64,000 bases of DNA from Reichenbachiella versicolor (lineage in GTDB: Bacteria; Bacteroidota; Bacteroidia; Cytophagales; Cyclobacteriaceae). The notes beneath the pieces are model-generated. The model had not been told where the DNA came from. It did not search any database and was given only the letters and a program-made list of their open reading frames with translations. The stretch covers positions 186,001 to 250,000 of the forward strand of contig NZ_QFZQ01000001.1 of the NCBI RefSeq assembly GCF_003171675.1, read 5' to 3'. Of the stretch, positions 8,601-26,563 are shown in pieces (position 1 is the first letter of the stretch; each line of letters opens with the position of its first letter). The position numbers and the translations under genes are program-made.

Positions 8601-9836
8601 TTATGAGCTTAATATTAATTTGGATTGCTCATAGGCAAAAATGAGTGCAACTGATAGTGCAAATAATGGTAGCATGATGCCTAGGGCTATAATGATGATG
8701 AATAATCCTACGCCTACTGAGAACTGGGCTGGTACTACTGGTACGCTCCATTCTCCTTTTCGCTTCCTGAGAAGGTAAGTGTACAAACCTGATATGCTCA
8801 TCACCAATAGCATAAATGCAACTACTAGCATCAAATACCAGTTCCATGGCCCAAACTCTCCTTGATGAAAAGCCATCACCCATAGCCTTCCTTGCATCAT
8901 TATACCGATGTCTGACCACGCTAGTTTGGCTACAGGTTTTCCAGAGTATTGGTCGAAATGGAGCTTTCTCATAGAGGATAGCTCGCTTGTTCTATTGGAT
9001 ACGCTGAATACAGCCTTAGGAGAGAGGGGGAGGTGGAGACTTATTTCTCCAGGTAGATCCAGCTCTCGGGCTATCATTGCCATTTGATCTAAGGTCAATG
9101 GTTCGCCTTTGATTTCAGAAGTGAAAGCTCGCCCATCCCACGTTTTAGGGAAACCTGTATTTGTTTGATCTTGTACCCATTTGAAGTTGCTGCCAAAGAC
9201 ATCCGTCCAAGGTAGCCCCCCTGCGAGTACTAATAGAAGCAGGATTGAAAACCAAAATCCTGTGACGGCATGTATGTCTCGGTAGAGCAAACGCTTTGAA
9301 CCGTCAGTTCGAATGGTGAAAACACCTTTTAGCTTCCATCCGTCCTTGGGCCACCAGATATAGAGCCCTGTCAGTATCAGTACCACCATCCAGCTAGCGA
9401 CTAGTTCCACTACTTTGGTTCCGTACTTACTCAGTAGCAGCTCTCCATGCAGTTTTCTGATCAAGTACATGTCGGTGTTTTTGGTGACTACCTCGCCGTT
9501 GACAGACCCATCTACCGGACTGATGAAAAGACTAGACTTACCAGAGAATCTACCGGATATGAATTCTGTCGCTTTATTTTGATCAGCGGTGATGATCATG
9601 GCGTTGGGAGGTTTGATTGCGTTTTTCTTAGCGATCTCCCATTGCTCTTGATAGCTCACTAGGTGAGGCTCAGCAGGCACTTCTTTCAGACTATCATACA
9701 TGGGTTTTTCATAGTCGCTTTTAAATAGATATACTATACCTGTGATAGAAAGCAATATGATGATAGGCAGCGAAACAAGACCTGCTATGAAGTGCCATTT
9801 CCATAGCCACTGATGTAGTAAGTGCTTCGTGTTCAT
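8601..9836 (-). CDS. PepSY-associated transmembrane protein (iron/siderophore-uptake type)
   Basis: 411 residues with about four membrane segments (about 15-37, 140-163, 190-212, 335-355, plus a hydrophobic C-terminus near 375-405). HQWLWKWHFIAGLVSLP at the N-terminus, YRDIHAVTGFW and KLHGELLL are typical of the PepSY_TM family, whose conserved His residues are thought to bind haem or take part in reduction of imported ferric chelates. The start codon overlaps the stop of the upstream TonB receptor (ATGA, 9833-9836), so the two are translationally coupled and belong to one uptake operon. Confidence 0.85.
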   Translation of the reverse strand: MNTKHLLHQWLWKWHFIAGLVSLPIIILLSITGIVYLFKSDYEKPMYDSLKEVPAEPHLVSYQEQWEIAKKNAIKPPNAMIITADQNKATEFISGRFSGKSSLFISPVDGSVNGEVVTKNTDMYLIRKLHGELLLSKYGTKVVELVASWMVVLILTGLYIWWPKDGWKLKGVFTIRTDGSKRLLYRDIHAVTGFWFSILLLLVLAGGLPWTDVFGSNFKWVQDQTNTGFPKTWDGRAFTSEIKGEPLTLDQMAMIARELDLPGEISLHLPLSPKAVFSVSNRTSELSSMRKLHFDQYSGKPVAKLAWSDIGIMMQGRLWVMAFHQGEFGPWNWYLMLVVAFMLLVMSISGLYTYLLRKRKGEWSVPVVPAQFSVGVGLFIIIIALGIMLPLFALSVALIFAYEQSKLILSS

Positions 9837-12139
9837 TTCTGTGCGAATTTGTACCCGATTCCTACATTGAAGTTTCTAGGATTTCCGAGTGAGTAAGACT
9901 CCCCCCATTGGTTAGATCTAGCTACTGTGGCATAGAGCTCATCCGTTGCGTTGATGATATTGGTCCATATATCAAATGCCTTCCATTCATAGCCCAGTCT
10001 GAGGTTGAAAATATCGTAGCCTTCGTATGACTTGGAGTGTACAGCGTCCATATAGTATTCACCGACATGCTGCCATTCTACACTTGCTCTGAAACCCTTT
10101 AGGTACTCAGGTTTGTAGGTAATCTGCGCATTAGCTGTCCATTCGGGGGCTTGTGGCATGCTTTTATTTGAATAGTCGATACCTGATTCTTTATAATCTA
10201 GGAATTTGTGAATCGCATTTGTTCCACTTACTCTGATGAGAATAGAAGGTATTGGTTGTACTTGCAGGTTATATTCCACTCCTTGATGAGTCGTACTGCC
10301 AGCATTTTTACGGATTCTAGTGCCATCATCTAGTAATACACTGATGATTTCATTTCGACCATCCATTTGGTAAATCGTAGCTTCAAGTCTTGCTGTATTA
10401 TTGGCGAATGCTACCCAGCCACCAAGTTCATAACTATGGTAATAAACAGGTTTCAATGTAGGGATTTCATTCCCTCGGTATAGCTCACCTACTTGAGGAG
10501 GTACAAACCCTTGACTGTAGTTAGCATATATCCCACGATTGTTTTCTAGATCGTAGGTGAATCCAACTTTTGGAGTAAACTGACTGAAAGAATTTTTTCC
10601 ATCCAATACAGCTGTATAGGCATTGCTGTCTAGTGCATTTTCAAATTGGTAATTGAAATGATCAAATCTCAACGCGGCAATAAGGTTAAGATTGTCGACT
10701 AGTTCCACCTTGCCTTGAATATATGCTGCGGTATTCACTAAGTCTGCTTGATAGTCGGCTAGCAAACTATCAGTCTCTATAAATGAGTCATATATACCCT
10801 CGTTGTTTTTAGAGATTTCGATATAGTTAGCTTCGTATGTATTGGGACTATAGTCGACACTTACTCCTCCGATCAGACTACTATTCATCCAATTGAAGTC
10901 TTGCTTGTGCTGGGAGATGAGGCCGAAACTATTGAAGCTATTGTCATTGATTTCGCCATGAGCCAGGTTTGGGTTTCCCGCCGGAATCCAAGGTTTGAAG
11001 TCATCTTTTACCCTGTATGATGGGTTTTGCTTGACAGAGTTGTTTCTGTAGTAACCAGTAAAAGTTGATTTAGCATGATCATTCCAGTAGTGATTGACGG
11101 CCAGTTTGGTACGGATGGCATCCACCTGTCTATTGGTGAATGTTTGCTCTGATTCATAAGATTCACTGAAAAATGCTGCGCTGTCAATAGAGCCGGACAT
11201 TTCTGAATAGTAATCGATCAGTGTATTACTCCATACTATCTCAGTGTTTTCATTGACAAAGTAATTAGCAGAAAAACTCAAAGCCAACTTATCGAAATCG
11301 CTGTGCTCTCGGACACCATCTCGCTGGTCTGCATAATACCCTGCTACTCTTACACCTACTTTATTGAAGGTATTTGACGCATAGAAATCAGTTCTTTTGT
11401 ATCCTATGTCATTGCCTTGGATACTGATACCAGCAGTTGGGCGGTAAGATGGCTTTTGAGAGATGAAGTTCACCGCTCCACCGATCGCTTCACTACCATA
11501 GATACTTGAGGCAGGTCCTCGGATGATCTCAATGTTTTTTACTTTGGCCATATTCATTTCCAGTAAGGCATTGTGATTGAATACTCCAGATGCTCTGATA
11601 GGCACACCATCTTCTAGGTATAGATAAGATGCTCCATAGTCAATCGGTCTTCTAATACTCATTGTGTGCTGTTCATTGCCCAAGTCTACCATGTAGACCC
11701 CAGGGTTTTGATTGAGTATTTGGTCTATCGTGGTGGGCTTATTGTCGTCTATGGTTTTAGCAGTTACACTAGAAATGGCGATGGGGGCTTCTGATCGCTT
11801 TTCTTGTTCTCTGTTGGCACTGACTACGACTTCATTGAGAGACAGGACGTCTGTTTCTAGCCCTATCACAAGTCCTTTTTCTGCAGTAGTCATTTGAGGT
11901 TTATATCCCATGATATACACCTTCAGCTGGTCCCTTCCAGATTTTGCTTTGATGCTGAACTTTCCCTGTATATCAGTCAATACAGTTTGTTGGTTGTCTT
12001 CAGATAGATTGGACACGTATGTAAATGGTATTGCTTCACCTGTTTCTCCATTCGTTACAGTTCCAGTTATGATTTGTTGGGCATAGGTAGTAGTCATCCA
12101 TAAACACAGTATGGCTGTGATGATGTATTTGAAATTCAT
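9833..12139 (-). CDS. TonB-dependent outer-membrane receptor, probably for a metal chelate
   Basis: 768 residues. Order: signal peptide (1-20, ending TYAQ), a carboxypeptidase-regulatory-like beta domain (about 22-105), the plug (about 120-230, with NPGVYMVDLG and IEIIRGPASSIYGSEAIGGAVN) and a beta-barrel ending in an aromatic-terminated strand (VGIGYKF). It is not a SusC-type receptor: there is no SusD partner and the length is that of siderophore or metal receptors. Its neighbours, the coupled PepSY protein and the upstream Cys-rich small protein, support uptake of iron or copper. The exact ligand is not readable. Confidence 0.85.
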   Translation of the reverse strand: MNFKYIITAILCLWMTTTYAQQIITGTVTNGETGEAIPFTYVSNLSEDNQQTVLTDIQGKFSIKAKSGRDQLKVYIMGYKPQMTTAEKGLVIGLETDVLSLNEVVVSANREQEKRSEAPIAISSVTAKTIDDNKPTTIDQILNQNPGVYMVDLGNEQHTMSIRRPIDYGASYLYLEDGVPIRASGVFNHNALLEMNMAKVKNIEIIRGPASSIYGSEAIGGAVNFISQKPSYRPTAGISIQGNDIGYKRTDFYASNTFNKVGVRVAGYYADQRDGVREHSDFDKLALSFSANYFVNENTEIVWSNTLIDYYSEMSGSIDSAAFFSESYESEQTFTNRQVDAIRTKLAVNHYWNDHAKSTFTGYYRNNSVKQNPSYRVKDDFKPWIPAGNPNLAHGEINDNSFNSFGLISQHKQDFNWMNSSLIGGVSVDYSPNTYEANYIEISKNNEGIYDSFIETDSLLADYQADLVNTAAYIQGKVELVDNLNLIAALRFDHFNYQFENALDSNAYTAVLDGKNSFSQFTPKVGFTYDLENNRGIYANYSQGFVPPQVGELYRGNEIPTLKPVYYHSYELGGWVAFANNTARLEATIYQMDGRNEIISVLLDDGTRIRKNAGSTTHQGVEYNLQVQPIPSILIRVSGTNAIHKFLDYKESGIDYSNKSMPQAPEWTANAQITYKPEYLKGFRASVEWQHVGEYYMDAVHSKSYEGYDIFNLRLGYEWKAFDIWTNIINATDELYATVARSNQWGESYSLGNPRNFNVGIGYKFAQK

Positions 12140-14726: not shown

Positions 14727-16931
14727 ATGATGATGATGAAAAAGACTAGATTGCTTAGTGGATTGCTTTGCTTGATTTCTATATCTACTCTGGCAGATCC
14801 ACCAACTCCTCCACCTGGGAAAGTTTGGGTGTTGAATGAATTGATGAGTGATGAATTCGGACCAGAAGGCCCCAACTTGGACGTCTGGAATGTATATGGT
14901 CACGACAGATCTTGGGATCGAACTTCGGCTTTTGATCCCAAAGTGCTGGGTGTTGAGAAAGAGCCTGGAACTGATAATTACATTTTGACTTTGAATCCTA
15001 TCTGGTATTATGAGGATGAAGTCTGGACTCATCCATCTACTGGTCGTACTTACCAGTTTTCAGGAGCGGCACTTGATACCAAGCATAGAGAAACTTATGG
15101 GTACTATGAGATAAGAATCCGACCGTCTGACTTTCCTTTTGGATCAGGTGTTTTTATGAACTCTAGAGGAAATCCTGCAATAGCTTGTGATGATAGATAT
15201 GCATCGGAGTTGGATCTTATTGAAAATATGGGATATACAGGTCCGGGAGCTGGTGAGTTTGATAGTCGTGGAGGTTTCTTTAATTATGTTCAGCATGTGA
15301 ATAGTCATACAAAGAATATCATGACATCTGATGGTTCGGGTAATTGTATCCTAAGTGATAATCCGTGGCAGTCTGCTGGGGCAGATCATTATGATTTAGA
15401 AGATCGTCATGCTTTTTTTACAGTAGGGATGTGGTGGAAGGACGAGAAAACAGCTCATTTCTATAATAATGATAGGCAGTTTAGCACTATTACCCCTGCT
15501 AGAGATTACAACATTCCGATGGTTTTGATTTTGTCTATGGAAACATATACAACAAAAAAGGATGATGAAAATAATGCTGGAAACCCTAAGCCTGCAGAGT
15601 GGATGTGGGATGAGGAGTTTCGTACAAAAGACCAGCGTGCAGTCAAATATGATTGGGTAAGAGCTTGGAAACTTGTAGATATAGATGCTAATCAGATTAA
15701 TGATACTAAAGATAATTTGCAGGCACCGTCAACAACAATAGATACTTATCAAGGAAGAAATATAGAGGCGACTTTAATTTATTCTGTAAAAGCAAATAGA
15801 AAGGTTGTTGCTAAGCTGTTATCTCCAGTTGGTGATGAATTGGACAGACAGGAGTTTAATGTAACTAAGGGTGTGCGTTCGCTTAGAACAAACTTAAAAG
15901 TCGGGGATGAAGTAGCTGTTGCGTCTAATTACAAAGTTAGGTTTGAGATATTGGATGGTACGAATGTCTTAGTCGATGATGAAACACTAGTCAATGTTCA
16001 AGCTACTACTTATACTAAACAGCTTTCGAGTGACTTGTATCCAACATCCCTAGAGCCTCGCCAATCTAGCTATCAGATTCCTGTAGAGTATGAGACTGAT
16101 GAGGAAAGCACTATTAATATTGAATTGAAGAAACCGGACGGAACCTCAGTTGGGATTTTTACTGCTGATGTAGACAAAGGTAAAGGTGTATCAAGGGTTA
16201 ATGTCAGTCTTGATCCAGTACTAGATGCTGGTGATGATTATGTGCTAAAAACTTATATGCACCGAAAGGGTATGGATGAATCGGACCCAATGGCTGTATC
16301 AATAGGTGATGTCAATGTAGATTTAACTGAAGGTGCATGGGGAGATATTAGTATCAATAGCACAACTTCTTCTATCAATATGGATGACACTACTGTAAGA
16401 GTTGACTACACTTACTCTGCTCTTGAAAATGGGGTGTTAGAAATTTCATTTATTGATCCTGATGGTAAAATAGTAGCAACCAAAAGACATATTGAAAGAT
16501 ATGGAGAGAGAACACTGTCGCGGGATATTATTTGGGATAAACAAGACCTTACTCCATCGGATGATTATAAAGTCACTATTTCATATACTTATGATGACAA
16601 TCTTTATCCTGCATTAAAGGATACCGTTTACAATATTTCAGTGCTCAACGATGTTACGGATATTAGTAATTTTAATAGTGAAGAGGTCAATTCGTTGCTC
16701 TCTTACCCAAACCCTACGAATGGAGAAATATCTCTTTCTTTAAAAAATAATTCTGATAGAGTTTTGGCTGTTAGCTTATTTGACTTTAGTGGATCTAGAG
16801 TTGATTTACCATATACTCTTTCTGAGGATAATGAAATTAAGTGCGATCTATCAGTTTACTCCCCAGGAGTGTATGTCATAGAGGTAGCTACAGATAGAAA
16901 AGTGTATTCATTCAAAGTAATTAGGGAATAA
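14727..16931 (+). CDS. Secreted family GH16 glycoside hydrolase with type IX sorting domain
   Basis: 734 residues. A signal peptide (about 1-23) is followed by a GH16 jelly-roll domain (about 35-315). The catalytic motif ELDLIE lies at residues 161-166, with Glu161 the expected nucleophile, Asp163 the helper and Glu166 the acid/base of the beta-bulge type. Trp-rich surroundings (VWNVYGHDRSW, MWWKDEK, YDWVRAWK) fit a sugar cleft. Two or more Ig-like modules follow (about 330-640), then a C-terminal type IX secretion sorting domain (about 657-734: SYPNPTNGEISL ... GVYVIEV). GH16 enzymes cut beta-1,3 or beta-1,4 galactans or glucans; with the adjacent mannosylglycerate operon, a red-algal galactan is likely, but the subfamily is not assignable by eye. 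Confidence 0.85.
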   Translation: MMMMKKTRLLSGLLCLISISTLADPPTPPPGKVWVLNELMSDEFGPEGPNLDVWNVYGHDRSWDRTSAFDPKVLGVEKEPGTDNYILTLNPIWYYEDEVWTHPSTGRTYQFSGAALDTKHRETYGYYEIRIRPSDFPFGSGVFMNSRGNPAIACDDRYASELDLIENMGYTGPGAGEFDSRGGFFNYVQHVNSHTKNIMTSDGSGNCILSDNPWQSAGADHYDLEDRHAFFTVGMWWKDEKTAHFYNNDRQFSTITPARDYNIPMVLILSMETYTTKKDDENNAGNPKPAEWMWDEEFRTKDQRAVKYDWVRAWKLVDIDANQINDTKDNLQAPSTTIDTYQGRNIEATLIYSVKANRKVVAKLLSPVGDELDRQEFNVTKGVRSLRTNLKVGDEVAVASNYKVRFEILDGTNVLVDDETLVNVQATTYTKQLSSDLYPTSLEPRQSSYQIPVEYETDEESTINIELKKPDGTSVGIFTADVDKGKGVSRVNVSLDPVLDAGDDYVLKTYMHRKGMDESDPMAVSIGDVNVDLTEGAWGDISINSTTSSINMDDTTVRVDYTYSALENGVLEISFIDPDGKIVATKRHIERYGERTLSRDIIWDKQDLTPSDDYKVTISYTYDDNLYPALKDTVYNISVLNDVTDISNFNSEEVNSLLSYPNPTNGEISLSLKNNSDRVLAVSLFDFSGSRVDLPYTLSEDNEIKCDLSVYSPGVYVIEVATDRKVYSFKVIRE

Positions 16932-16961
16932 TTAGTGAGGACTAACCAAATTCTAAAAAAG

Positions 16962-16990
16962 AGGAGGATTCAATCAAATTGAATCCTCCT
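16962..16990 (+). terminator. Terminator of the GH16 gene
   Basis: Perfect 13-bp stem AGGAGGATTCAAT / ATTGAATCCTCCT with a 3-base loop followed by TTTT. Confidence 0.85.
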
Positions 16991-17001
16991 TTTAGGTTTA
17001 C

Positions 17002-17055
17002 TTTTAATCACAAGGCGATAGCCTATTGGGCTGAATTCTTCGATCCTTGGGTCAG
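17002..17055 (+). repeat. Short interspersed repeat, copy 3
   Basis: Same blocks as copies 1 and 2 (AATCACAAGGCGATAGCC, TTGGGCTGAATTC, GATCCTTGGGTC). It lies between the GH16 terminator and the 3' end of the glycerate kinase gene. The GGC-GATA-GCC block can form a small hairpin. Confidence 0.75.
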
Positions 17056-17076
17056 AAAATGTCACTTGTGAATGTT

Positions 17077-18201
17077 TTACAGCGATGAATAAATTGATTT
17101 TATCAACTTAGAACTCAGCGATTCTAGATGTTGTGATGCATTATTCATAGCGTCTTTTACATCCTTGGCTTCGTCCATTACGCTCATTACTTGATGTGCT
17201 CTTAGCTGTTTAATTTGTTTTTCTTCGAGATCTATTTTACCTACTAGTACGCCTAGACTTTTACTGAATTTAAGACAAAGTCCAGAGACCCCATCGACTA
17301 CCTTGCCCTCGAGTGATTGATGGTCTAGTTTTCCTTCACCAGTGATGACAAAATCGGCCTCTTTTAGCAGTGCTTCAAATTTTACAATGTCTATTATGGC
17401 ATCAATACCGCGCTGAAGTTTTGATAAGAATAAAGGAATCATAGAGGCAGCTATACCACCGGCTGCACCAGCCCCAGAAATATTGCTAACTTCCATATTG
17501 AAGGCCTGTTGAATAACATGGGCATAATTCTTTAATCCGTCATCTAGACTTCTAATTTCTGATTGGCTCGCGCCTTTTTGAGCACCGTATACATATGCAG
17601 CTCCATTCGGGCCATGCATAGGGTTACTAACATCGCATAGTACTACGAATTCAACATCGGGAGTGAGGATAGCTTTCGAATTGTCAATTCTGTCAATTTT
17701 TATAAGGTTTTCCCCTGTAGGTTTCAAAGTATTGCCATGAGCATCTAAGAATCGATATCCTAAAGCTGAAGCTATTCCAATACCTGCGTCGTTGGTGGCA
17801 CTGCCACCAATGAATAAGTATATGTTCTTAGCGCCGTGTTGCAAAGCATCTTTAATTAATTCTCCAGTGCCCAGTGAAGTGGTATACATACAGTTCCTAT
17901 CTTCCTTATTTAGAAGTTGTAGACCTGAAGCTTTTGACATTTCTATAAAAGCCATATCACCTTTGTACATGTACGGAGCCTTTATTTTATGAAAAAGCGG
18001 ATCATGGACTTCTATTGTCCTACTTTCTAGGCTTAAGCTTTTTTCTATAGCCTCAAGAGTTCCTTCCCCTCCATCAGCCAAAGGTTGAGTTATAATTTCA
18101 GCTTTAGGGAAAGATTTATGAACTCCCTTGGCTATTGCAGCGCAGACCTCTTCGGAAGTCAGGGAGTCTTTGAATTTGTCTGGTGCAATGAGAACTTTCA
18201 T
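17077..18201 (-). CDS. Glycerate kinase, GlxK/GarK family
   Basis: 374 residues, the usual length. The N-terminus MKVLIAPDKFKDSLTSEEV, then QPLADGGEGTLE, FIGGSATNDAGIGIASALG and VITGEGKLDHQSLEGK are signature blocks of the GlxK/GarK kinases, which phosphorylate D-glycerate with ATP, normally to 2-phosphoglycerate, feeding lower glycolysis. It starts 2 bases after the symporter gene, as the last gene of the TonB receptor - hydrolase - symporter - kinase operon. That position explains where its glycerate comes from: hydrolysis of mannosylglycerate. Confidence 0.92.
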   Translation of the reverse strand: MKVLIAPDKFKDSLTSEEVCAAIAKGVHKSFPKAEIITQPLADGGEGTLEAIEKSLSLESRTIEVHDPLFHKIKAPYMYKGDMAFIEMSKASGLQLLNKEDRNCMYTTSLGTGELIKDALQHGAKNIYLFIGGSATNDAGIGIASALGYRFLDAHGNTLKPTGENLIKIDRIDNSKAILTPDVEFVVLCDVSNPMHGPNGAAYVYGAQKGASQSEIRSLDDGLKNYAHVIQQAFNMEVSNISGAGAAGGIAASMIPLFLSKLQRGIDAIIDIVKFEALLKEADFVITGEGKLDHQSLEGKVVDGVSGLCLKFSKSLGVLVGKIDLEEKQIKQLRAHQVMSVMDEAKDVKDAMNNASQHLESLSSKLIKSIYSSL

Positions 18202-18203
18202 AC

Positions 18204-19778
18204 TTATATCATATGTTGAAATGTGATGCTAAACCATAGAATGACTAAAAAGAAGATAAGCAATAAACCTACTTTCGTTTTCTCTTTAAGGATAGTATTG
18301 AGTTCTAATCCTATATCACTCTGAGAGGAGGTATAATTACCCTTAAACAAATTACTAGCCAATAGTCCTATTGTTAGAGTCACAGCTGCTCCGATGGCGT
18401 TCCACCAAAACCAGAATACATTGGGAACAAATAACCACAAATAGATATTGACTGATACTCCAGTTATTAACCCAATGTTGATTCCTTTAGTATTGACCTT
18501 ACGGAGTAATAGGGCTGATATAAAGGTAGCCATAATAGGGCCATAGAAAACGGAGCCTATTTTATTGATCGCCTCAATTACTGTAGGTGCTATTCCTCCA
18601 ACAAAAAAGGCAAAAATGAGACAAAATAATCCCCAAAATAGGGCTGCTATCTTAGAATACTTCATGTATGTTTTGGTATCCAAGTCTTTGTTTCGGTTGA
18701 ATAGGTCTTCTACTGATGCAGCACTTAGAGAGTTGATCGTAGAGCTAAGGGACGACATTGCTCCAGCCAAAATCGTCACCATAAGTATTCCGATAACTCC
18801 ATGTGGTAAATAGTCTCTTATAAATATAGGAACCATTAAGTCTGGTTTTTCACTTGGGATTTTACTCATAAATTCTGGGTTGGATATAGCTAAAGTTCCT
18901 ATCACAAGTCCCATAATACAATAACTAAGTGTGATAGGGAATCTGATTAGACCATTAGCGAGTATGGTTTTATTGACTGTGGCTAGATCCTTGGCTGAAA
19001 ACAATCGTTGTACTTGACTCTGATCTGTTCCATAGTAAGAAATGTACAAGAACATGCCGCCGACTAACATCGGCCAAAATCCAAAACCTTCTCCATCTGT
19101 TAGTCCCAAAGAACCAAAGTCAACTACTTCGAGTCTTGCAGGATCTACATTCGCAGAGAATTCTTCCCAGCCTCCTATTTGATTGAGTCCAGCAAATAGA
19201 CAAATACCTATACCTATCATCAGTATAATCATTTGAATCATATCTCCATAGACCACTGCTTTCATGCCTCCTTGATATGAATAGATCAATGTGACCACAC
19301 CCATTATTACAATAGTGCTCCAAAGGGGTAGTGTCATGACGCTGGTAAGAATCAATGCCGCAGTGTAGATCATTACACTAGTTGCAAAGGCTCTGCTGAA
19401 TTGAAATACTATACTTAAAAGTACTCTCGTAGAAGCACCAAACCGTTTTTCTAAAAATCCATATACACTGACTACTCCTGCTTTGTACATGGGAGGAATT
19501 AATACTACCATCAGCACAATCATGGCTATCGGTACTCCAAATTCATAAGTTAGCCATTTCATGCCTCCACCATTAGATATACCTACAAATGCTGGTGCTG
19601 AAATAAAACTAATGGCTGACAGTTGAGTAGCGACTGTACTCAGGGTAAGAGGAAACCAAGTAAAGCTTTTTCCTCCTAGGAAGTAGTCATTTCCACTTTT
19701 GTTCTTGTTGAAAAGTTTTCCTAGAAACAAGAAACCAATGGTATATGAAGCGATTACTAAATAGTCCAGGTAATTCAT
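18204..19778 (-). CDS. Sodium:solute symporter (SSS family)
   Basis: 524 residues with about 13-14 hydrophobic membrane segments. The N-terminus DYFLGGKSFTWFPLTLSTVATQLSAISFISAPA and the internal SQVQRLFSAKD are typical of the SSS family, which imports sugars, organic acids or related solutes with Na+. The start overlaps the hydrolase stop (ATGA, 19775-19778). Because the hydrolase has no signal peptide, this carrier probably brings intact mannosylglycerate across the inner membrane. Confidence 0.88.
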   Translation of the reverse strand: MNYLDYLVIASYTIGFLFLGKLFNKNKSGNDYFLGGKSFTWFPLTLSTVATQLSAISFISAPAFVGISNGGGMKWLTYEFGVPIAMIVLMVVLIPPMYKAGVVSVYGFLEKRFGASTRVLLSIVFQFSRAFATSVMIYTAALILTSVMTLPLWSTIVIMGVVTLIYSYQGGMKAVVYGDMIQMIILMIGIGICLFAGLNQIGGWEEFSANVDPARLEVVDFGSLGLTDGEGFGFWPMLVGGMFLYISYYGTDQSQVQRLFSAKDLATVNKTILANGLIRFPITLSYCIMGLVIGTLAISNPEFMSKIPSEKPDLMVPIFIRDYLPHGVIGILMVTILAGAMSSLSSTINSLSAASVEDLFNRNKDLDTKTYMKYSKIAALFWGLFCLIFAFFVGGIAPTVIEAINKIGSVFYGPIMATFISALLLRKVNTKGINIGLITGVSVNIYLWLFVPNVFWFWWNAIGAAVTLTIGLLASNLFKGNYTSSQSDIGLELNTILKEKTKVGLLLIFFLVILWFSITFQHMI

Positions 19779-21085
19779 GTATTATACATTAAATCCAGTA
19801 TGGTAGATGCTGTCCAGGAAAAATTCTTACCTCCATATCCTAAAGATAAGTCTTTTGCTACCTCTTTTTGAGGTTCGTAATATTCGCACAAGCCCCATTT
19901 ATTGACTATTTTAAGGGTGTCAGCTTTGACTACATTAGCTATCTCACGATACCCATACTCCATTAATCCATGATAGATCATCCAATTGACATGTGGCCAA
20001 ATGGGACCTCTCCAATATCTTTTGGAATCAAATTCAGGACTGTCTACGTCAAAGCTTGGACATAAATAGTACCCATTATTGTGTAAATGGACTAAATGGT
20101 CTTGAAGATGAGCAGCTTGCTGCCCAGACGCTACTTGAGCAAATAGTGAGACATAGCTCCCTATTTCTTTGTACTCAATTTGTTTCTGTGCTCTTAGATC
20201 ATATGGGACATACATTTTGAGCTTTTCATTCCAAAACTTTGAATTGAAAGAGGTGATACTTTGCTGTTGCCATTCTTTTATTTCACTGGTATCAAAAGAA
20301 AATCTTTCACCTATTCGAATAAGACTGTCATTAGAACGAATCAGAATAGCATTCATCATGTTGTCCTGAATCAGAAATGGACATTCTTCCGCTATCTTGG
20401 GACTATCGTATTGATTTTCTTTTCCAAATAAAAGGAGGTAAACGTATCTGTCATATTGTGCTGCTGTGGGTCTTTCATCAGCTTCTGATACATCTAGATC
20501 TCTTCGTTGATAGTTAGGTAGGCTGCCTTCTTTGATTTCAATTCGGTTTAGAGATTCATCCCAGAGAGGAGAGTTGTCTCGCCCAGATTCCCATGGGTGA
20601 TACATGTACATCAATCCTTCATGGTGAGGGTCTCTGCTATTGTATAAGAATCTGTGAAAGTTGACCACTTTATTAAAAGACTCCTTTACAAAGGCTACGA
20701 GGTTTTCATCGTCTGGGTGCTGAATTAGTAAATTTTCTAGGACGAATCCAATGACAGGAGGATTGGTAATTCCTGATGACTTTGGTTTGTCGGGAGAGCC
20801 TGAATTCACAGAAGATTCCCAGAAGTCAAAATTAGGGAAGTATGTTTTTTCATTTTCAGAGTGAAACAAGATGTGTGGCACCATTCCATTGGCCCATTGA
20901 CCTGATAGTAGGGAGTTAATTTCTTTGATAGATCGATCAAGGTTTTTGTGGCCATTTCCAAGGCTTACAAATCCAGAATCCCAGTTCCACTGAAAAGGAT
21001 AGAGGGTATTGGTAGGAACTGTAAATTCCCCTTTCCAGTTAGTGTCTAAGACTTCGTGTGCTTTTTTGATTAACTCATCAAACAT
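19775..21085 (-). CDS. Mannosylglycerate hydrolase-like glycosidase (GH63 type)
   Basis: 436 residues, no signal peptide, so cytoplasmic. It shows the (alpha/alpha)6 barrel motifs of bacterial GH63 mannosylglycerate/glucosylglycerate hydrolases: YPFQWNWDSGF (29-39), HPWESGRDNSPLWD (163-176), SKRYWRGPIW (354-363), CEYYEP (400-405) and FSWTAS (422-427). Asp170 is the expected general acid and Glu401 or Glu404 the expected base. In the characterised family these enzymes release D-glycerate from 2-O-alpha-mannosyl- or glucosyl-glycerate. A glycerate kinase and a symporter encoded in the same operon strongly support this activity. Mannosyl versus glucosyl cannot be told by eye. Confidence 0.8.
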   Translation of the reverse strand: MFDELIKKAHEVLDTNWKGEFTVPTNTLYPFQWNWDSGFVSLGNGHKNLDRSIKEINSLLSGQWANGMVPHILFHSENEKTYFPNFDFWESSVNSGSPDKPKSSGITNPPVIGFVLENLLIQHPDDENLVAFVKESFNKVVNFHRFLYNSRDPHHEGLMYMYHPWESGRDNSPLWDESLNRIEIKEGSLPNYQRRDLDVSEADERPTAAQYDRYVYLLLFGKENQYDSPKIAEECPFLIQDNMMNAILIRSNDSLIRIGERFSFDTSEIKEWQQQSITSFNSKFWNEKLKMYVPYDLRAQKQIEYKEIGSYVSLFAQVASGQQAAHLQDHLVHLHNNGYYLCPSFDVDSPEFDSKRYWRGPIWPHVNWMIYHGLMEYGYREIANVVKADTLKIVNKWGLCEYYEPQKEVAKDLSLGYGGKNFSWTASTILDLMYNT

Positions 21086-21132
21086 GTGATATAAAATTTT
21101 GATATGATAATGTGACTGTTCAGAGCTAAAAT

Positions 21133-21182
21133 CACCTCCTGACAGGAGAGAATTTATTTCTCTCCTGTACTCAATGGAGGTG
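21133..21182. other. Two-tier hairpin between the TonB receptor and hydrolase genes
   Basis: An outer stem CACCTCC (21133-21139) / GGAGGTG (21176-21182) encloses a perfect 11-bp stem ACAGGAGAGAA / TTCTCTCCTGT with a 5-base loop. It lies in the 132-bp gap after the receptor gene. It may stabilise the receptor mRNA or partly terminate, giving more receptor than downstream enzymes. Confidence 0.6.
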
Positions 21183-21217
21183 GACTACTACATGCTCTTT
21201 GTTAATTCAGCTTCTAA

Positions 21218-23818
21218 TTAGAAGTCGAATGTAGCTCTTAGAAACAATCTTCTAGGAAGAATAGGTCTACCTACAAAATATGCTCCTGCTGTTTGGTTAC
21301 TTCCTTGTCTAGGAGACCCTTCAGTGATTCCATCAGAATCAAATAGGTTGAAAACAGAAGCACTTATTCTAAGGGATTCTCTTTCTCCCATGGTGAAGCG
21401 ATATCCTGCATCTAATCTCACTATTGTATATGGATCTAGTTTGTTATTGTTCGCATCGTCTGCGTACTTTTCTCCTAGATAGTTTGCCGATATGTTGGCG
21501 TCAAATCCTCCAACAGTATAATTGGCACCTACCATACCCATTACATTCGGTTGTCTTCTTAGCTTATTACCTACGAAATCTTCGTTTCCTTCAAATTCTG
21601 TGAACTCGTGATCTTGAAAAGTGAAATTTCCATACAGATTGGCGCCTTTCGCTACATTGTAGTTTGCACTTACTTCGATACCTAGAGTTTGAGTACTCTG
21701 GACACTCACTTCTTCGATTACATTGTTCGGATTATTAGGGTCGTTGACAAAGTCAATGCTTCTTCTATCATTCAATCCAACATAAAATAAAGCTGCCGTA
21801 GTTGAGAATTTAGAACCTCCATATTTGATGCCGAGTTCAGATTGGATAGTTCCTTCTGTTTCATAGGTCTGTGGCACACCTGGGGCTGAAAATCTAACCC
21901 CTCTAAGTTCAGGGAAGAAATAACCTTTTGAGAAGTTGGCATAAAGATTAGTAGTGGTGTTTAGCTTATACAAACCAGCTAAAGCTACTGCAAAATCAGA
22001 AGCAGATACAGTTCCATTTTCAAAAGTATTAGAACCTACACCAGTTTCTCTATTGATTTGACCTTGAGCTCTTTCCCATCTAAATCCTATGTCAAAATTG
22101 AATCTATCAAATTCCATTTGATCAGCTGCATAGAATGCAATTTTAGTGCTTTGATGATATCTATTGGCTGTTTGATTGCCAGAGATAAAACCACTAGTAG
22201 AGTAGTAGGCTGTATCTTCAGCTACTGTAGCAGGATCGTCATATTGAATATTTACTACACGAGGGGCATTACGGAAATCGCCTACAAAATTGGATATCCA
22301 GTTATTGTCCTCTGCTCTAGTATCAGACATAAATGTTCCTACAGTTACAGTATGAATATCTACTGTTTTAGTCAAATTGATTTCAGCGACCATTTCTTCC
22401 ATTGGTCTTTCTCTATCTAGTATTCTGTTTTCGAATAATAGATCACTACTTGCTAATTGAGCTCCATTGTCAGCATAGGTGAACTGTGCATCTGCTGGTA
22501 ATCCACGATCAGACAGGTAGCTAGCTTGATCTTCTGGAACATTATGTACACCATCTCCATCTAAGAAAAGATTAAACCAGTGTTCATATCTAGCTGCTTT
22601 GGTTTTGGCAGAGATCAACCAGTCATCTCCAAATGAATGCTGTAAATCCAGCATCAAATATCCACCTTTAGTTGTTACTCCATTTCCAATTGGAGATTCA
22701 AATCTTCCATTTGGTGTATCAAAAGAATAATCAGTCGCTTGACTTGTCAGTAATGTAAACACTTCCTTACCATCGTTGCCCGTTGGTCTAGACTTGTCAT
22801 CACCATTTAGTGGATATGGAAGGTAGAACTGAACTTTGTCATCGATCATCTGACCAGATACCGTAAACGAACTATTATTTTCGTTGAATAGTTTTTTGAT
22901 ATTGGCTCTGATTTGATAGCCCTTGGTAGTCAATCCTGTTTCAAGTGGACCTTCATCATATCTATAAAACCCAGATACGGAGTAAAGTAAGTCCTCACTT
23001 AAGGGGCCAGAACTCAAGAAGTCCATTTTGGTTCTTCCTCCAGATCCCCATTCTAGCTGCACCTTGTTTTCAGGATCAAAAGATCCAGTTTTACTGGTGT
23101 AATTAATGATACCTGCTACACTTCCTGCACCGAATAGTGTAGATACACCACCTCTTACAAATTCTAGATTTGAGAATCCCATATCTCCTCTAAAGTACAC
23201 ATCATGAGCTGATGAGTTTAATCCGAAAGAACTCAAGACAGGGAGTCCATCGATTTGAATCGGGGTGAACTGATACTGTCCACCAGACGGCATACCTCTA
23301 ACGAATACGTTAGAAGCGACTTCACCACCACCACCTTCTGCGGTGATACCTGGTACTGTTCTCAATATATCAGCTTGTGAGTTAGCAGATAACGTTTCTA
23401 GTTGTTTGGAGCCTATCCGTGTAAGAGAAATTGGAGACTCTTTTTGAGATCTGTCAGCAAAAGTACCCGTTACTATTACCGCATCTAGTGCCATCACATC
23501 ACCTGACAAAGTAAAGTTTTGAGTTATGTTACCACCATCACTACCGTTGATAGCTATTTCTTGACTTGTATATCCAGTAAAGGAAGCAATCAACGTTTGT
23601 TCTCCAGAAGGAGCGTTTGGGATTTCAAAGTTTCCATTGAAGTCAACTACAGAACCTATCAATGTTCCTTTGATAACGACGTTAGCACCGATGAGTAAAT
23701 CTCCGTTTTCATCCTTGACGGTTCCGGAGATTTTGACTTGAGCCATCAGTAAGTTGGTTGTCAACAGCATTGCTAGCACCAATGCGCATTGACTCATAAT
23801 AGAGTTTAGCCTTTTCAT
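21218..23818 (-). CDS. TonB-dependent receptor of the mannosylglycerate operon
   Basis: 866 residues. Signal peptide (about 1-26, ending LLMAQ), carboxypeptidase-regulatory-like domain (about 28-112), plug (about 120-245, with LRTVPGITAEGGGGEVASNVFVRG-type sequence and FVRGGVSTLFGAGSVAGIINY) and a large barrel ending RRLFLRATFDF. No SusD homologue is nearby, so it is a stand-alone receptor, not a SusCD pair. First gene of the operon with hydrolase, symporter and glycerate kinase, it presumably imports the small glycoside through the outer membrane. The 5' region is shared with the divergent AraC regulator. Confidence 0.88.
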   Translation of the reverse strand: MKRLNSIMSQCALVLAMLLTTNLLMAQVKISGTVKDENGDLLIGANVVIKGTLIGSVVDFNGNFEIPNAPSGEQTLIASFTGYTSQEIAINGSDGGNITQNFTLSGDVMALDAVIVTGTFADRSQKESPISLTRIGSKQLETLSANSQADILRTVPGITAEGGGGEVASNVFVRGMPSGGQYQFTPIQIDGLPVLSSFGLNSSAHDVYFRGDMGFSNLEFVRGGVSTLFGAGSVAGIINYTSKTGSFDPENKVQLEWGSGGRTKMDFLSSGPLSEDLLYSVSGFYRYDEGPLETGLTTKGYQIRANIKKLFNENNSSFTVSGQMIDDKVQFYLPYPLNGDDKSRPTGNDGKEVFTLLTSQATDYSFDTPNGRFESPIGNGVTTKGGYLMLDLQHSFGDDWLISAKTKAARYEHWFNLFLDGDGVHNVPEDQASYLSDRGLPADAQFTYADNGAQLASSDLLFENRILDRERPMEEMVAEINLTKTVDIHTVTVGTFMSDTRAEDNNWISNFVGDFRNAPRVVNIQYDDPATVAEDTAYYSTSGFISGNQTANRYHQSTKIAFYAADQMEFDRFNFDIGFRWERAQGQINRETGVGSNTFENGTVSASDFAVALAGLYKLNTTTNLYANFSKGYFFPELRGVRFSAPGVPQTYETEGTIQSELGIKYGGSKFSTTAALFYVGLNDRRSIDFVNDPNNPNNVIEEVSVQSTQTLGIEVSANYNVAKGANLYGNFTFQDHEFTEFEGNEDFVGNKLRRQPNVMGMVGANYTVGGFDANISANYLGEKYADDANNNKLDPYTIVRLDAGYRFTMGERESLRISASVFNLFDSDGITEGSPRQGSNQTAGAYFVGRPILPRRLFLRATFDF

Positions 23819-23992
23819 TCATTATACAGTTAAATAATACATAATTGGGTAATGACCTGACTAAGAGATCATTCTTATAAGACAAAGGAGAATAACTTCC
23901 TGAATGAAATCTTGAAGAATACTATTAAGATGTAGCACTATTCTATCGAAAATGGTCATTATGTTGGCTTGAAATTGAATATATTAGTAGAG

Positions 23993-24859
23993 ATGAGACC
24001 CGATTATGAGAAAATATTAGAGAAGCCAGAGCGATCTTTTATTGCTAAAACTGTCATTCGAGAGAAGAGGCCTACGCTAAGTGATGCATGGCACTATCAT
24101 CCCGAAATAGAAATTTGCTATACCGAAAAAAGTCGAGGAGGAAAGCTGTTTGTAGGAAACCAAGTCAGGCACTATGAAGAGTCTGATATCGTGATGCTTG
24201 GAAGTAATTTACCTCATGGCTTTGTTACCAGTTATCCTTGTCGACAAGTTGTTTTGCAGATGAATTCGGATTTTTTAGGAAGTGAGTTCATTGAAAAACC
24301 TGAGTTAAAATCTATTAAGCAGCTATTTCATAGTGCCAACAGAGGTTTGTTTTTTAATGGCCGCACTAGAAACCGTGCCGTGAAAAAAATTAAAGATGTC
24401 ATACAGTCGGTTGGTTTTGGTCAGTTGGTAAATCTACTCGAGTTACTAAATATGCTAGCCAATTCTCCAGATGCTACTAGTATTTGTACTAAGGAGTATA
24501 TATTGGATGACAATGAATCCAGTTTCGATAGAATGAAAGTCGTTTATGATCACATAATGAACAACTTCAAAGAGGAAGTTGTAATTAGAGAAGTGTCTGA
24601 AAAGTTGAGCTTGAGTGAACCGGCTTTTTTTGCATTCATTAAAAAACATACAAAGAAGACTTTTACACAGCTAATCAACGAGTATAGGGTAAATCATGCC
24701 TGTAAGCTGCTAATGTCCAATGACATGACTATTTCACAAATTGCCTTTGATAGTGGGTTTAATAGTCTTTCTTATTTTAATAGAAAGTTTAAACAGGTAA
24801 TGAATCAAACCCCTCATGATTTTAGAGAGGCTCATTTGGGAATTGTTGAAGGGGAGTAA
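23993..24859 (+). CDS. AraC-family regulator, probable controller of the mannosylglycerate operon
   Basis: The ATG at 23993 (MRPDYEKIL) is preferred; an in-frame TTG at 23969 would add 8 residues. 288 residues. An N-terminal cupin sensor domain (about 15-90: DAWHYHPEIEICYTEKSRGG, VGNQVRHYEESDIVMLGSNLPHG) is followed by a double helix-turn-helix (about 190-280; second helix ISQIAFDSGFNSLSYFNRKFK, closing TPHDFRE). It is transcribed divergently from the receptor gene and upstream of the fucosidase gene, so it may control both. The cupin may bind a sugar; the effector is inference. Confidence 0.87.
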   Translation: MRPDYEKILEKPERSFIAKTVIREKRPTLSDAWHYHPEIEICYTEKSRGGKLFVGNQVRHYEESDIVMLGSNLPHGFVTSYPCRQVVLQMNSDFLGSEFIEKPELKSIKQLFHSANRGLFFNGRTRNRAVKKIKDVIQSVGFGQLVNLLELLNMLANSPDATSICTKEYILDDNESSFDRMKVVYDHIMNNFKEEVVIREVSEKLSLSEPAFFAFIKKHTKKTFTQLINEYRVNHACKLLMSNDMTISQIAFDSGFNSLSYFNRKFKQVMNQTPHDFREAHLGIVEGE

Positions 24860-25048
24860 TATTCAGCTTTTATTGAATTTTTAGTGTATTTCAACATTAA
24901 GAAAGTACTAGGATAGTTATACAGGATAGAACTAGTCTTCGGTGATTATTGGACAATAACAGGGGTATTTCCTAATTTGATGTGTAGGAGTTGTTAAATG
25001 AAATCTAAGCTGTCATATTGCTTTTGAATTCAAAATACCATAACTAAA

Positions 25049-26563
25049 ATGAAATCACTTTACACTCTCTTGACTTTTACCACTCTTTTAGTCTTTTCGT
25101 GTCAAGAATCTAAAGAATCTATCGAAAAGCAAATTACAAGCACTATCAAATACGAGCCAAATTGGGAATCACTGGCGCACCATGATAATACACCAGAATG
25201 GTTTCAAGATGCTAAGTTGGGTATTTACTTTCACTGGGGAGTTTATACTGTTCCTGCTTTTGGAAGCGAGTGGTATCCTTATCATATGTACAGAGAAGGT
25301 TCAGATATGTGGGATTATCATCAGAAAACATATGGTGATCAATCTGAGTTTGGCTATCATCATTTTATTCCAGACTTTAAAGCTGAGAACTTTGATGCCA
25401 AGGAATGGGTAGAATTATTCAAGAAATCAGGAGCCAAATTTGCCGGACCTGTAGCCCAACATCATGATGGTTTTGCGATGTGGGATAGTAAAGTAAACCC
25501 TTGGAATGCTAAGGCTATGGGACCAAAAAGAGATATCACCGGAGAACTTGCTAAGGAGATAAGAGCGAATGATATGAAACTAATTACGACTTTTCATCAT
25601 GCTCGGAATCTTCAACGATATAAAGGTGAAAAGCCCGGTTTTGCTTCTCATTTTATATACAACAAAGAATGGCATACTTCATCAAAAGATCCTGATCTTA
25701 AGAAATTCTATGGTAATGTAGATCCTAAATGGTTTGAACAATACTGGTATGATCAGATTGATGAAGTTGTCAAAAACTATGATCCAGATATCATATGGTT
25801 TGATTCATGGTTAAATTTTATGCCCGGGCATTTGCGTCAAAAGATGGTGGCTAATTTCTTTAACAACGAACTAGAAAACAATCAGGAAGTAGTTATTGCT
25901 TACAAGCAAAATGACTTACCAAGTGATGTAGGAGTTTTGGATATCGAACAAGGAGGACGTAGAGATGTCTCTGAGCAAACTTGGATGACTGATATCACTA
26001 TCAGTATGGAGTCATGGTGTTATGTGGAAGGTCAGACATACAAACCTACTTCTATGGTGGTTCGAAACTTGATAGATGTTGTTAGTAAAAATGGGGTAGT
26101 TCTACTTAATCTTTCTCCAAAATCTGATGGGACAATTCCTGAGGAACAAAAAAGTGTTTTACTTGAAATGGGACAATGGTTTGAGAAACATGGAGAAGCT
26201 GTATTCGATACAAGGCCTTGGATCATGTTTGGTTTTGGAAATGCTCAAGCTGGTCAAGGAAGTCATGGAGGTCAATCAGCTACAGTCGAGTATTCTGCTT
26301 CTGATATTCGATTCACTCAGTCCAAGGATGGTAGAACACTTTACATGTTCTTTTTGGGAGTACCGGCGGAAGGATGGTCGGATAATTTTAGATTGATGGC
26401 AGATCAACGATATTTCCCAGAAGGGACAATTAAAAAAGTATCTTTAATGAATACTGGTGAGGAGCTTGACTATGAACTGGATGGTTGGGGTTTCAGAGTG
26501 AAACAGCCTGCTACGACTAGTATGGATTCTTTAGCGAATGTGGTGAAGATTGAGTTCGAATAA
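25049..26563 (+). CDS. GH29 alpha-L-fucosidase-type lipoprotein
   Basis: 504 residues with a lipoprotein signal (lipobox LVFSC near residue 18). GH29 hallmarks: WFQDAKLGIYFHWGVYTVPAFGSEWY-type N-terminus, GPVAQHHDGFAMWDS, and DIIWFDSWL with the Asp of WFD as expected nucleophile. NGVVLLNLSPKSDGTIP and a C-terminal beta domain complete the family layout. The enzyme would act on the cell surface or in the periplasm to release alpha-L-fucose; some relatives cut alpha-L-galactose, which occurs in red-algal galactans. Substrate is not readable. It follows the AraC gene by 189 bp on the same strand. Confidence 0.9.
   Translation: MKSLYTLLTFTTLLVFSCQESKESIEKQITSTIKYEPNWESLAHHDNTPEWFQDAKLGIYFHWGVYTVPAFGSEWYPYHMYREGSDMWDYHQKTYGDQSEFGYHHFIPDFKAENFDAKEWVELFKKSGAKFAGPVAQHHDGFAMWDSKVNPWNAKAMGPKRDITGELAKEIRANDMKLITTFHHARNLQRYKGEKPGFASHFIYNKEWHTSSKDPDLKKFYGNVDPKWFEQYWYDQIDEVVKNYDPDIIWFDSWLNFMPGHLRQKMVANFFNNELENNQEVVIAYKQNDLPSDVGVLDIEQGGRRDVSEQTWMTDITISMESWCYVEGQTYKPTSMVVRNLIDVVSKNGVVLLNLSPKSDGTIPEEQKSVLLEMGQWFEKHGEAVFDTRPWIMFGFGNAQAGQGSHGGQSATVEYSASDIRFTQSKDGRTLYMFFLGVPAEGWSDNFRLMADQRYFPEGTIKKVSLMNTGEELDYELDGWGFRVKQPATTSMDSLANVVKIEFE

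Follow-up and report, generated by a model that had tools for sequence, protein, structure and literature searches.

Which nutrient is served by a row of genes encoding a TonB-dependent receptor, a sodium symporter, a hydrolase of glycoside hydrolase family 63 (GH63) type and a glycerate kinase? Such a row, with a divergent AraC-family gene, is present in a 64,000-nt stretch of the Reichenbachiella versicolor genome (hereafter the window; all coordinates are positions within it). The best explanation in our view is an operon for the catabolism of a glycerate alpha-glycoside, with mannosylglycerate the likeliest candidate, and we give this explanation a probability of about 0.72. The features are the following:

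17077..18201, minus strand: glycerate kinase of the GlxK/GarK family (matches PF02595, TIGR00045 and 3cwc)
18204..19778, minus strand: SSS sodium:solute symporter (PF00474, TIGR00813), proposed inner-membrane carrier of the intact glycoside
19775..21085, minus strand: mannosyl-/glucosyl-glycerate hydrolase-like enzyme (GH63-type, MGH1-like), predicted acid Asp170 and base Glu401; Asn108 replaces the usual Gln
21218..23818, minus strand: TonB-dependent receptor with N-terminal CarboxypepD_reg-like domain, signal peptide by eye, without adjoining SusD partner
23916..23946, minus strand: putative operator of the AraC-type regulator, 31 bp, 97 bp upstream of the receptor start codon
23969..24859, plus strand: divergent AraC-family regulator (HTH_18)
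16959..16993, no strand assigned: terminator-like hairpin (stem of 16 pairs), lying between the 3' ends of the kinase gene and of a facing gene for a 734-aa protein

In the proposed pathway, the receptor would carry the free glycoside through the outer membrane and the symporter would bring it intact into the cytoplasm. There the GH63-type enzyme, by an inverting mechanism, would split it into D-glycerate and a free hexose. The glycerate kinase would convert the former to phosphoglycerate, which would enter glycolysis, whereas a ROK kinase and a type I mannose-6-phosphate isomerase, both encoded outside the operon, would process the hexose. The AraC-type protein, with the glycoside or its product as presumed inducer, would act at the conserved site upstream of the receptor gene.

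Gene content and conservation of the operon

In the order of transcription, receptor and hydrolase genes are separated by 132 bp, hydrolase and symporter genes overlap by 4 bp, and symporter and kinase genes lie 2 bp apart. Positions, strands and spacings given in an earlier sequence-only reading of this DNA match the open reading frames exactly. A hairpin scan of positions 16800-25100 returned 13 consensus hairpins, compared with 5.0 +/- 2.2 in shuffled sequences, and the one at 16959-16993 has the longest stem listed. This hairpin would end the operon transcript, and since it lies just past the kinase gene, the transcript plausibly spans receptor to kinase. A small hairpin with a T-rich tail (21135-21149) is present inside the 132-bp gap and could make the downstream genes less expressed than the receptor. 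The scan for sigma-70 promoters was uninformative (24 found, 25.8 expected).

The glycerate kinase matches PF02595 (Gly_kinase) with 429 bits (cut-off 23.3), TIGR00045 with 413 bits (cut-off 168) and the structure 3cwc, a putative glycerate kinase 2, with 266 bits. Both E. coli-type equivalogs stay under their cut-offs (287 of 686 and 284 of 625 bits). The symporter scores 143 bits against PF00474 (SSF, cut-off 22.8) and 210 bits against TIGR00813 (cut-off 184). Four of the five residues that we take to form the Na2 site of SiaT (Ala56, Leu59, Ala339, Ser342 and Ser343) are identical when compared by eye in the alignment with 5nv9, and Ala339 is replaced by Gly. The receptor possesses the TonB barrel (114 bits, cut-off 27) and Plug (57 bits, cut-off 23.9) domains. 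It does not belong to the SusC type (TIGR04056, 90 bits against a cut-off of 368), and no SusD partner is present beside it, its neighbours being the hydrolase and AraC genes. Its best other match in the host genome reaches 69.5 bits, compared with up to 1182 bits for receptors adjoining the hydrolase in other species, a rough comparison as different programs were used.

The operon is a real conserved unit, in agreement with the co-occurrence of transport and enzyme genes expected from the sequence-only reading. At least 583 loci in named genomes were ranked by hydrolase similarity alone, and we scanned the top 80 for neighbours within 5 kb; denominators are the loci with enough flank. The symporter gene follows the hydrolase gene on the same strand in 75 of 77 loci, a kinase gene lies downstream in 54/67, a receptor gene upstream in 46/75, and an AraC gene is present in 29/62. 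Receptor, symporter and kinase occur together in 29 of 54 loci, and with AraC in 15 of these 54. Other genes of the window recur within 5 kb in two loci each at most.

A survey of 395 genomes drawn evenly from the class, the host included, agrees with this. Using E-value limits that we set at 1e-40 for the hydrolase, 1e-110 for the symporter and 1e-100 for the receptor, and scoring the top two to four candidates per genome, a strong hydrolase match was found in six genomes, the symporter in the same six and the receptor in five of those. Among the 394 other genomes, hydrolase and symporter therefore share the same five, four of which also have the receptor. By coordinates, the receptor gene adjoins the hydrolase gene in all five genomes that have it, and the symporter gene lies within 0.7 kb in five of six; in the remaining genome (G199) it is on another contig.

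Hydrolase class and candidate sugars

The hydrolase matches the Pfam family MGH1-like_GH (PF22422) with 285 bits (cut-off 27) over profile positions 1-356 of 356, and possesses the motifs HPWESGRDNSP, RYWRGPIW and CEYYEP pointed out in the sequence-only reading. In sequence it is closest to the mannosylglycerate hydrolase of T. thermophilus (TTHA0978; 2z07, 4wva-4wvc) with 310 bits; the glucosylglycerate hydrolase of M. hassiacum (5ohc and others) reaches 204 bits for chain 6g3n and 197-200 bits for the other chains, at 26-28% identity. The structure predicted from an alignment of 14 sequences has a mean predicted local distance difference test (pLDDT) of 93.3 and a predicted template modelling score (pTM) of 0.93. 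Its best match by E-value is the T. thermophilus enzyme, with a template modelling (TM) score of 0.92 (TMq 0.92 to 4wva_B and 4wvc_A), a root mean square deviation of 1.5-1.7 A and 38% identity. The first 20 fold matches are all mannosylglycerate and glucosylglycerate hydrolases; YgjK (TMq 0.70-0.72) and trehalases (0.53-0.60) rank behind. Fold and profile scores support the class of mannosyl-/glucosyl-glycerate hydrolases for this enzyme, as proposed from the sequence, and on these scores we rejected a trehalase or a general GH63 glucosidase. Clustering with trehalase or glucosidase clades, named in the sequence-only reading as a refuting outcome, did not appear in this comparison by fold and profile.

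The catalytic pair, Asp182 and Glu419 in the numbering of the M. hassiacum enzyme according to its description (PMC6608630), is kept as Asp170 and Glu401; both reference enzymes share it. The same text lists eleven substrate residues as strictly conserved among characterised enzymes (PMC6608630), ten of which the window enzyme retains, with Gln115 replaced by Asn108. Gln434 of the M. hassiacum enzyme, stated there to contact the sugar (PMC6608630), corresponds to Phe422 in the window enzyme, to Phe in the T. thermophilus enzyme and to Phe in 81 of 82 relative rows, the remaining row having a gap. No signal peptide was seen in the hydrolase, and its match to the T. thermophilus enzyme begins at residue 7. 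This leaves no space for a signal peptide, and the enzyme is therefore probably cytoplasmic, as had been suggested.

Genes accompanying the operon in relatives bear on the sugar. Seven of 82 relative loci have a ROK kinase gene, which in five of them lies between the symporter and glycerate kinase genes, and a mannose-6-phosphate isomerase is found in three of the 82. In the two Winogradskyella loci L085 and L091 the isomerase gene directly follows the kinase gene with zero gap (manA, 155 and 156 bits, cut-off 116); in the Opitutus locus L110 a single 894-aa protein combines a ROK part with an isomerase-like part. Since the isomerase serves mannose and not glucose, mannosylglycerate is favoured for those relatives, and for the window by extension only. 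The host genome encodes a type I mannose-6-phosphate isomerase (manA, 254 bits), a glucokinase-like ROK protein (match to 2qm1, 172 bits) and a second ROK match. Red-algal digeneaside is a plausible substrate. At L129:742-3079 (host contig C19), the isomerase gene adjoins a divergent AraC-like gene that resembles the operon regulator by eye.

Regulator and conserved upstream site

That the operon has a regulator of its own, as the sequence-only reading held, is in agreement with the divergent AraC gene and a likely operator beside it. The regulator matches HTH_18 with 77 bits (cut-off 33.6); the cupin domain also attributed to it found no Pfam match at E 0.001, where it matched helix-turn-helix families only. 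Its start is called at TTG 23969, which may be too early, the true start possibly being the in-frame ATG at 23993.

We searched the regions between the AraC gene and the next gene in 31 relative loci and the window for a shared motif. The best of six runs scored 477 (worst 422), compared with 277-286 in six mononucleotide-shuffled sets (best of two runs each). In the 21 regions with a recognisable site, the information amounts to 1.24 bits per column, against 0.41 and 0.49 in the flanks, a difference that the selection of regions partly builds in. By eye, the pattern ATAGAATAGT-N11-ATAGTATTCT consists of two ATAG-led halves 21 bp apart. Column correlation is 0.65 at 21 bp and 0.72 at 16, which leaves the repeat structure unsettled. 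In its strict form, which was derived from these same upstream regions, the pattern occurs once each in 16 of 129 loci (15 relatives and the host genome) and nowhere else therein. The word ATGAAACC was set aside as an operator candidate, as it is probably the coding start of the receptor; 30 coding bases had been included on each side.

The site at 23916..23946 is likely the operator of the divergent AraC-type protein. It ends 97 bp before the called receptor start in the window and 89-110 bp before it in 11 of the 15 relatives. The distance is shorter in L048 (69 bp) and L047 (31 bp), and in L039 and L044 the site touches or overlaps the called start, perhaps called too early. The host genome has a single exact match to the strict pattern, at the operon. 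With up to two mismatches, 20 sites were found in the genome, compared with 16 for a reversed control pattern, and we claim no further targets.

A LacI-family gene, divergent from the receptor gene, replaces the AraC gene in 15 loci (14 of Flavobacteriaceae and one of Sediminibacterium), and a CGCAAACGTTTGCG-like palindrome was seen by eye in nine of the 14 upstream regions of these loci that were inspected. The regulator thus appears to have been exchanged between AraC and LacI types while the catabolic genes persisted.

Alternative explanations, known systems and neighbouring genes

Several observations weigh against a mannosylglycerate operon as outlined above. A recognised kinase is lacking in 13 of 67 loci, a recognised receptor in 29 of 75 and a recognised AraC gene in 33 of 62, and the strict operator pattern is absent from 16 of the 31 AraC-type relative regions. 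The window operon encodes neither an isomerase nor a sugar kinase, and the host ROK protein stays under the glucokinase cut-off (224 against 260 bits). The sequence-only reading, which called the operon complete, overstated it in this respect, as candidates for both functions are encoded elsewhere in the genome. The isomerase argument concerns three of 82 loci, two of which belong to one genus and have 95% identical isomerases, and the Opitutus fusion, with 19.5 bits, falls short of the manA cut-off of 116. Judged by TM-score, the hydrolase model matches the M. hassiacum enzyme (up to 0.93) as closely as it does the T. thermophilus enzyme. The sugar-contacting Gln, kept in both reference enzymes and in 81 of 82 relative rows, is Asn108 in the window, shared only with L003, a locus of a genome (G019) from the same family as the host. 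Furthermore, the two glycosides are stated to be about equally good substrates for the enzymes of T. thermophilus and Selaginella (PMC6608630). Since these two enzymes use both alike, the residues hint at the sugar and do not fix it.

For the same reason glucosylglycerate is a possible substrate of this very operon, in which case the glucokinase-like ROK protein encoded in the genome would phosphorylate the released glucose, a reading that we consider unlikely. An almost tenfold higher efficiency on glucosylglycerate is reported for the M. hassiacum enzyme, which shares the fold (PMC6608630), the best NCBIfam match of the window enzyme is glucosylglycerate hydrolase (NF047898, 316 bits), and the ROK kinases in relative loci cannot tell glucose from mannose. 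However, the NCBIfam score lies under the equivalog cut-off of 550, for which a glucosylglycerate-specific identity by this family was set aside; the sequence is nearer the T. thermophilus enzyme, position 434 is Phe and not Gln, and one flavobacterial genus has an isomerase gene in the operon, as has an Opitutus locus in a fused, more divergent form. It is far less probable that the operon recycles a self-made osmolyte, with transporters retrieving leaked solute. Rapidly growing mycobacteria probably mobilise their own glucosylglycerate with a homologous enzyme, according to the same source (PMC6608630), whereas the receptor in the window operon points outward. The host genome has no match to mannosyl-3-phosphoglycerate synthase (PF09488), and its best match to glucosyl-3-phosphoglycerate synthase (NF010496) has 48.6 bits against a cut-off of 262; endogenous turnover was set aside on these two synthase families, other routes of synthesis not having been searched.

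We give equally little credence to the idea that enzymes of the Asn108 branch have another, related substrate, for example a larger, further glycosylated form of mannosyl- or glucosyl-glycerate. This would explain the TonB receptor too, as such receptors are unusual for solutes small enough for porins, and the exchange of a nearly invariant Gln fits it. Against it, the remaining ten listed binding residues are kept, and Gln is retained in the closest relatives from Saprospiraceae, whose neighbouring receptors and symporters, where seen, are of the same types. The active-site tunnel of the enzyme family is also described as narrow and fitted to a small substrate (PMC6608630).

Similar to the window operon, the E. 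coli MngA/MngB system combines dedicated uptake, cytoplasmic splitting and a local regulator. E. coli grows on mannosylglycerate taken up by MngA of the phosphotransferase system (PMC8490865), whereas the window operon has a TonB receptor, an SSS symporter, a plain hydrolase and a glycerate kinase. Within the same phylum, Maribacter is reported to have homologues of the digeneaside degradation genes of Zobellia galactanivorans (PMC8072126), and for loci in North Sea Flavobacteriia digeneaside is mentioned as one possible substrate (PMC6298971); they are likened to the window operon by the proposed nutrient alone. Since such genes are on record for marine flavobacteria, the capability to degrade digeneaside, or mannosylglycerate, is known or predicted and not new. 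The operon had been called possibly undescribed, and this holds only in part, for its layout: among the titles and abstract openings listed in searches of an open-licence library, none told of an operon of TonB receptor, symporter, hydrolase and kinase for mannosylglycerate, nor of such an operator.

A broader proposal, which we hold tentatively and with some doubt, is that a SusD-less class of TonB receptors, dedicated to a free osmolyte of about 270 Da that is small enough to use porins, together with a sodium symporter, scavenges mannosylglycerate at very low concentrations. The whole cassette of receptor, symporter, hydrolase and kinase, with AraC and LacI regulators interchangeable, would then be mobile among lineages of Bacteroidota, with a possible spread to Verrucomicrobiota. 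Mannosylglycerate is known from red algae and some microbes; if the proposal is true, the osmolyte would be a traded nutrient well beyond red algae. Both mannosylglycerate and glucosylglycerate are widespread osmolytes, and in the literature searched their uptake as food by environmental bacteria is little described outside E. coli. Receptor, symporter, hydrolase and operator would form a compact marker set by which the trait could be counted in genomes and metagenomes, and the receptor would be well suited to the question of what a cell gains by using a TonB system for so small a solute.

In the hydrolase tree, the window enzyme falls within a 49-row group with support 100/100, where 39 of the other 48 rows carry the label Saprospiraceae or Lewinellaceae, and it clusters with L031, L032, L034 and L036 (100/99). 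The program flagged long branches, L003 and the two reference enzymes among them, as well as four rows of uneven composition. In a set of 59 genomes, made up of the host and relatives, hydrolase matches above 60 bits were found only in the host, G019 (421 bits, 43% identity) and G009 (167 bits), the latter in a shortened frame of 253 aa after a receptor gene of 57% identity. In G032 and G034, frames of about 435 aa match weakly at either end and may encode distant relatives. Five of the seven other species of the genus have no hydrolase match, and two have weak C-terminal matches only. This distribution fits horizontal acquisition. Base composition was uninformative as a sign of transfer (0.36-0.40 G+C in the operon genes, 0.37 in the window).

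Outside the operon, an alpha-L-fucosidase family gene (25049-26563) adjoins the regulator gene and is a further sign of a glycan-feeding lifestyle. The window also encodes a second TonB receptor whose gene overlaps that of a PepSY_TM protein by 4 bp (8601-12139), possibly a pair for iron-siderophore uptake and reduction. The 734-aa protein facing the operon end (14727-16931) possesses a type IX secretion sorting tail, and no other Pfam domain was detected at E 0.001.

Relative loci contain further genes. A GNAT acetyltransferase gene (about 200 aa) lies between hydrolase and symporter genes in nine relatives (L038, L039, L041, L044, L045, L046, L047, L063 and L085), assigned by Pfam in L041 and by BLAST in the others. 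A SIS-domain gene resembling glucokinase regulatory protein is found on the opposite strand upstream of the hydrolase gene in 11 flavobacterial loci (L079, L080, L082, L084, L086, L088, L092, L093, L094, L107 and L108). Nine of these 11 have genes for a different TonB receptor and DUF4249 proteins on the opposite strand after the kinase gene, and in several an isocitrate dehydrogenase-type gene follows (Pfam on L079 only). A GntP-family permease gene takes the place of the glycerate kinase gene after the symporter gene in L081 (from 12016, by BLAST) and L083 (L083:11991-13316, by Pfam), which suggests that the acid is exported or exchanged there. In L105 one operon contains two tandem hydrolase genes (L105:8974-11659), whose products share 43% and 40% identity with the window enzyme; each glycoside may have its own enzyme there.

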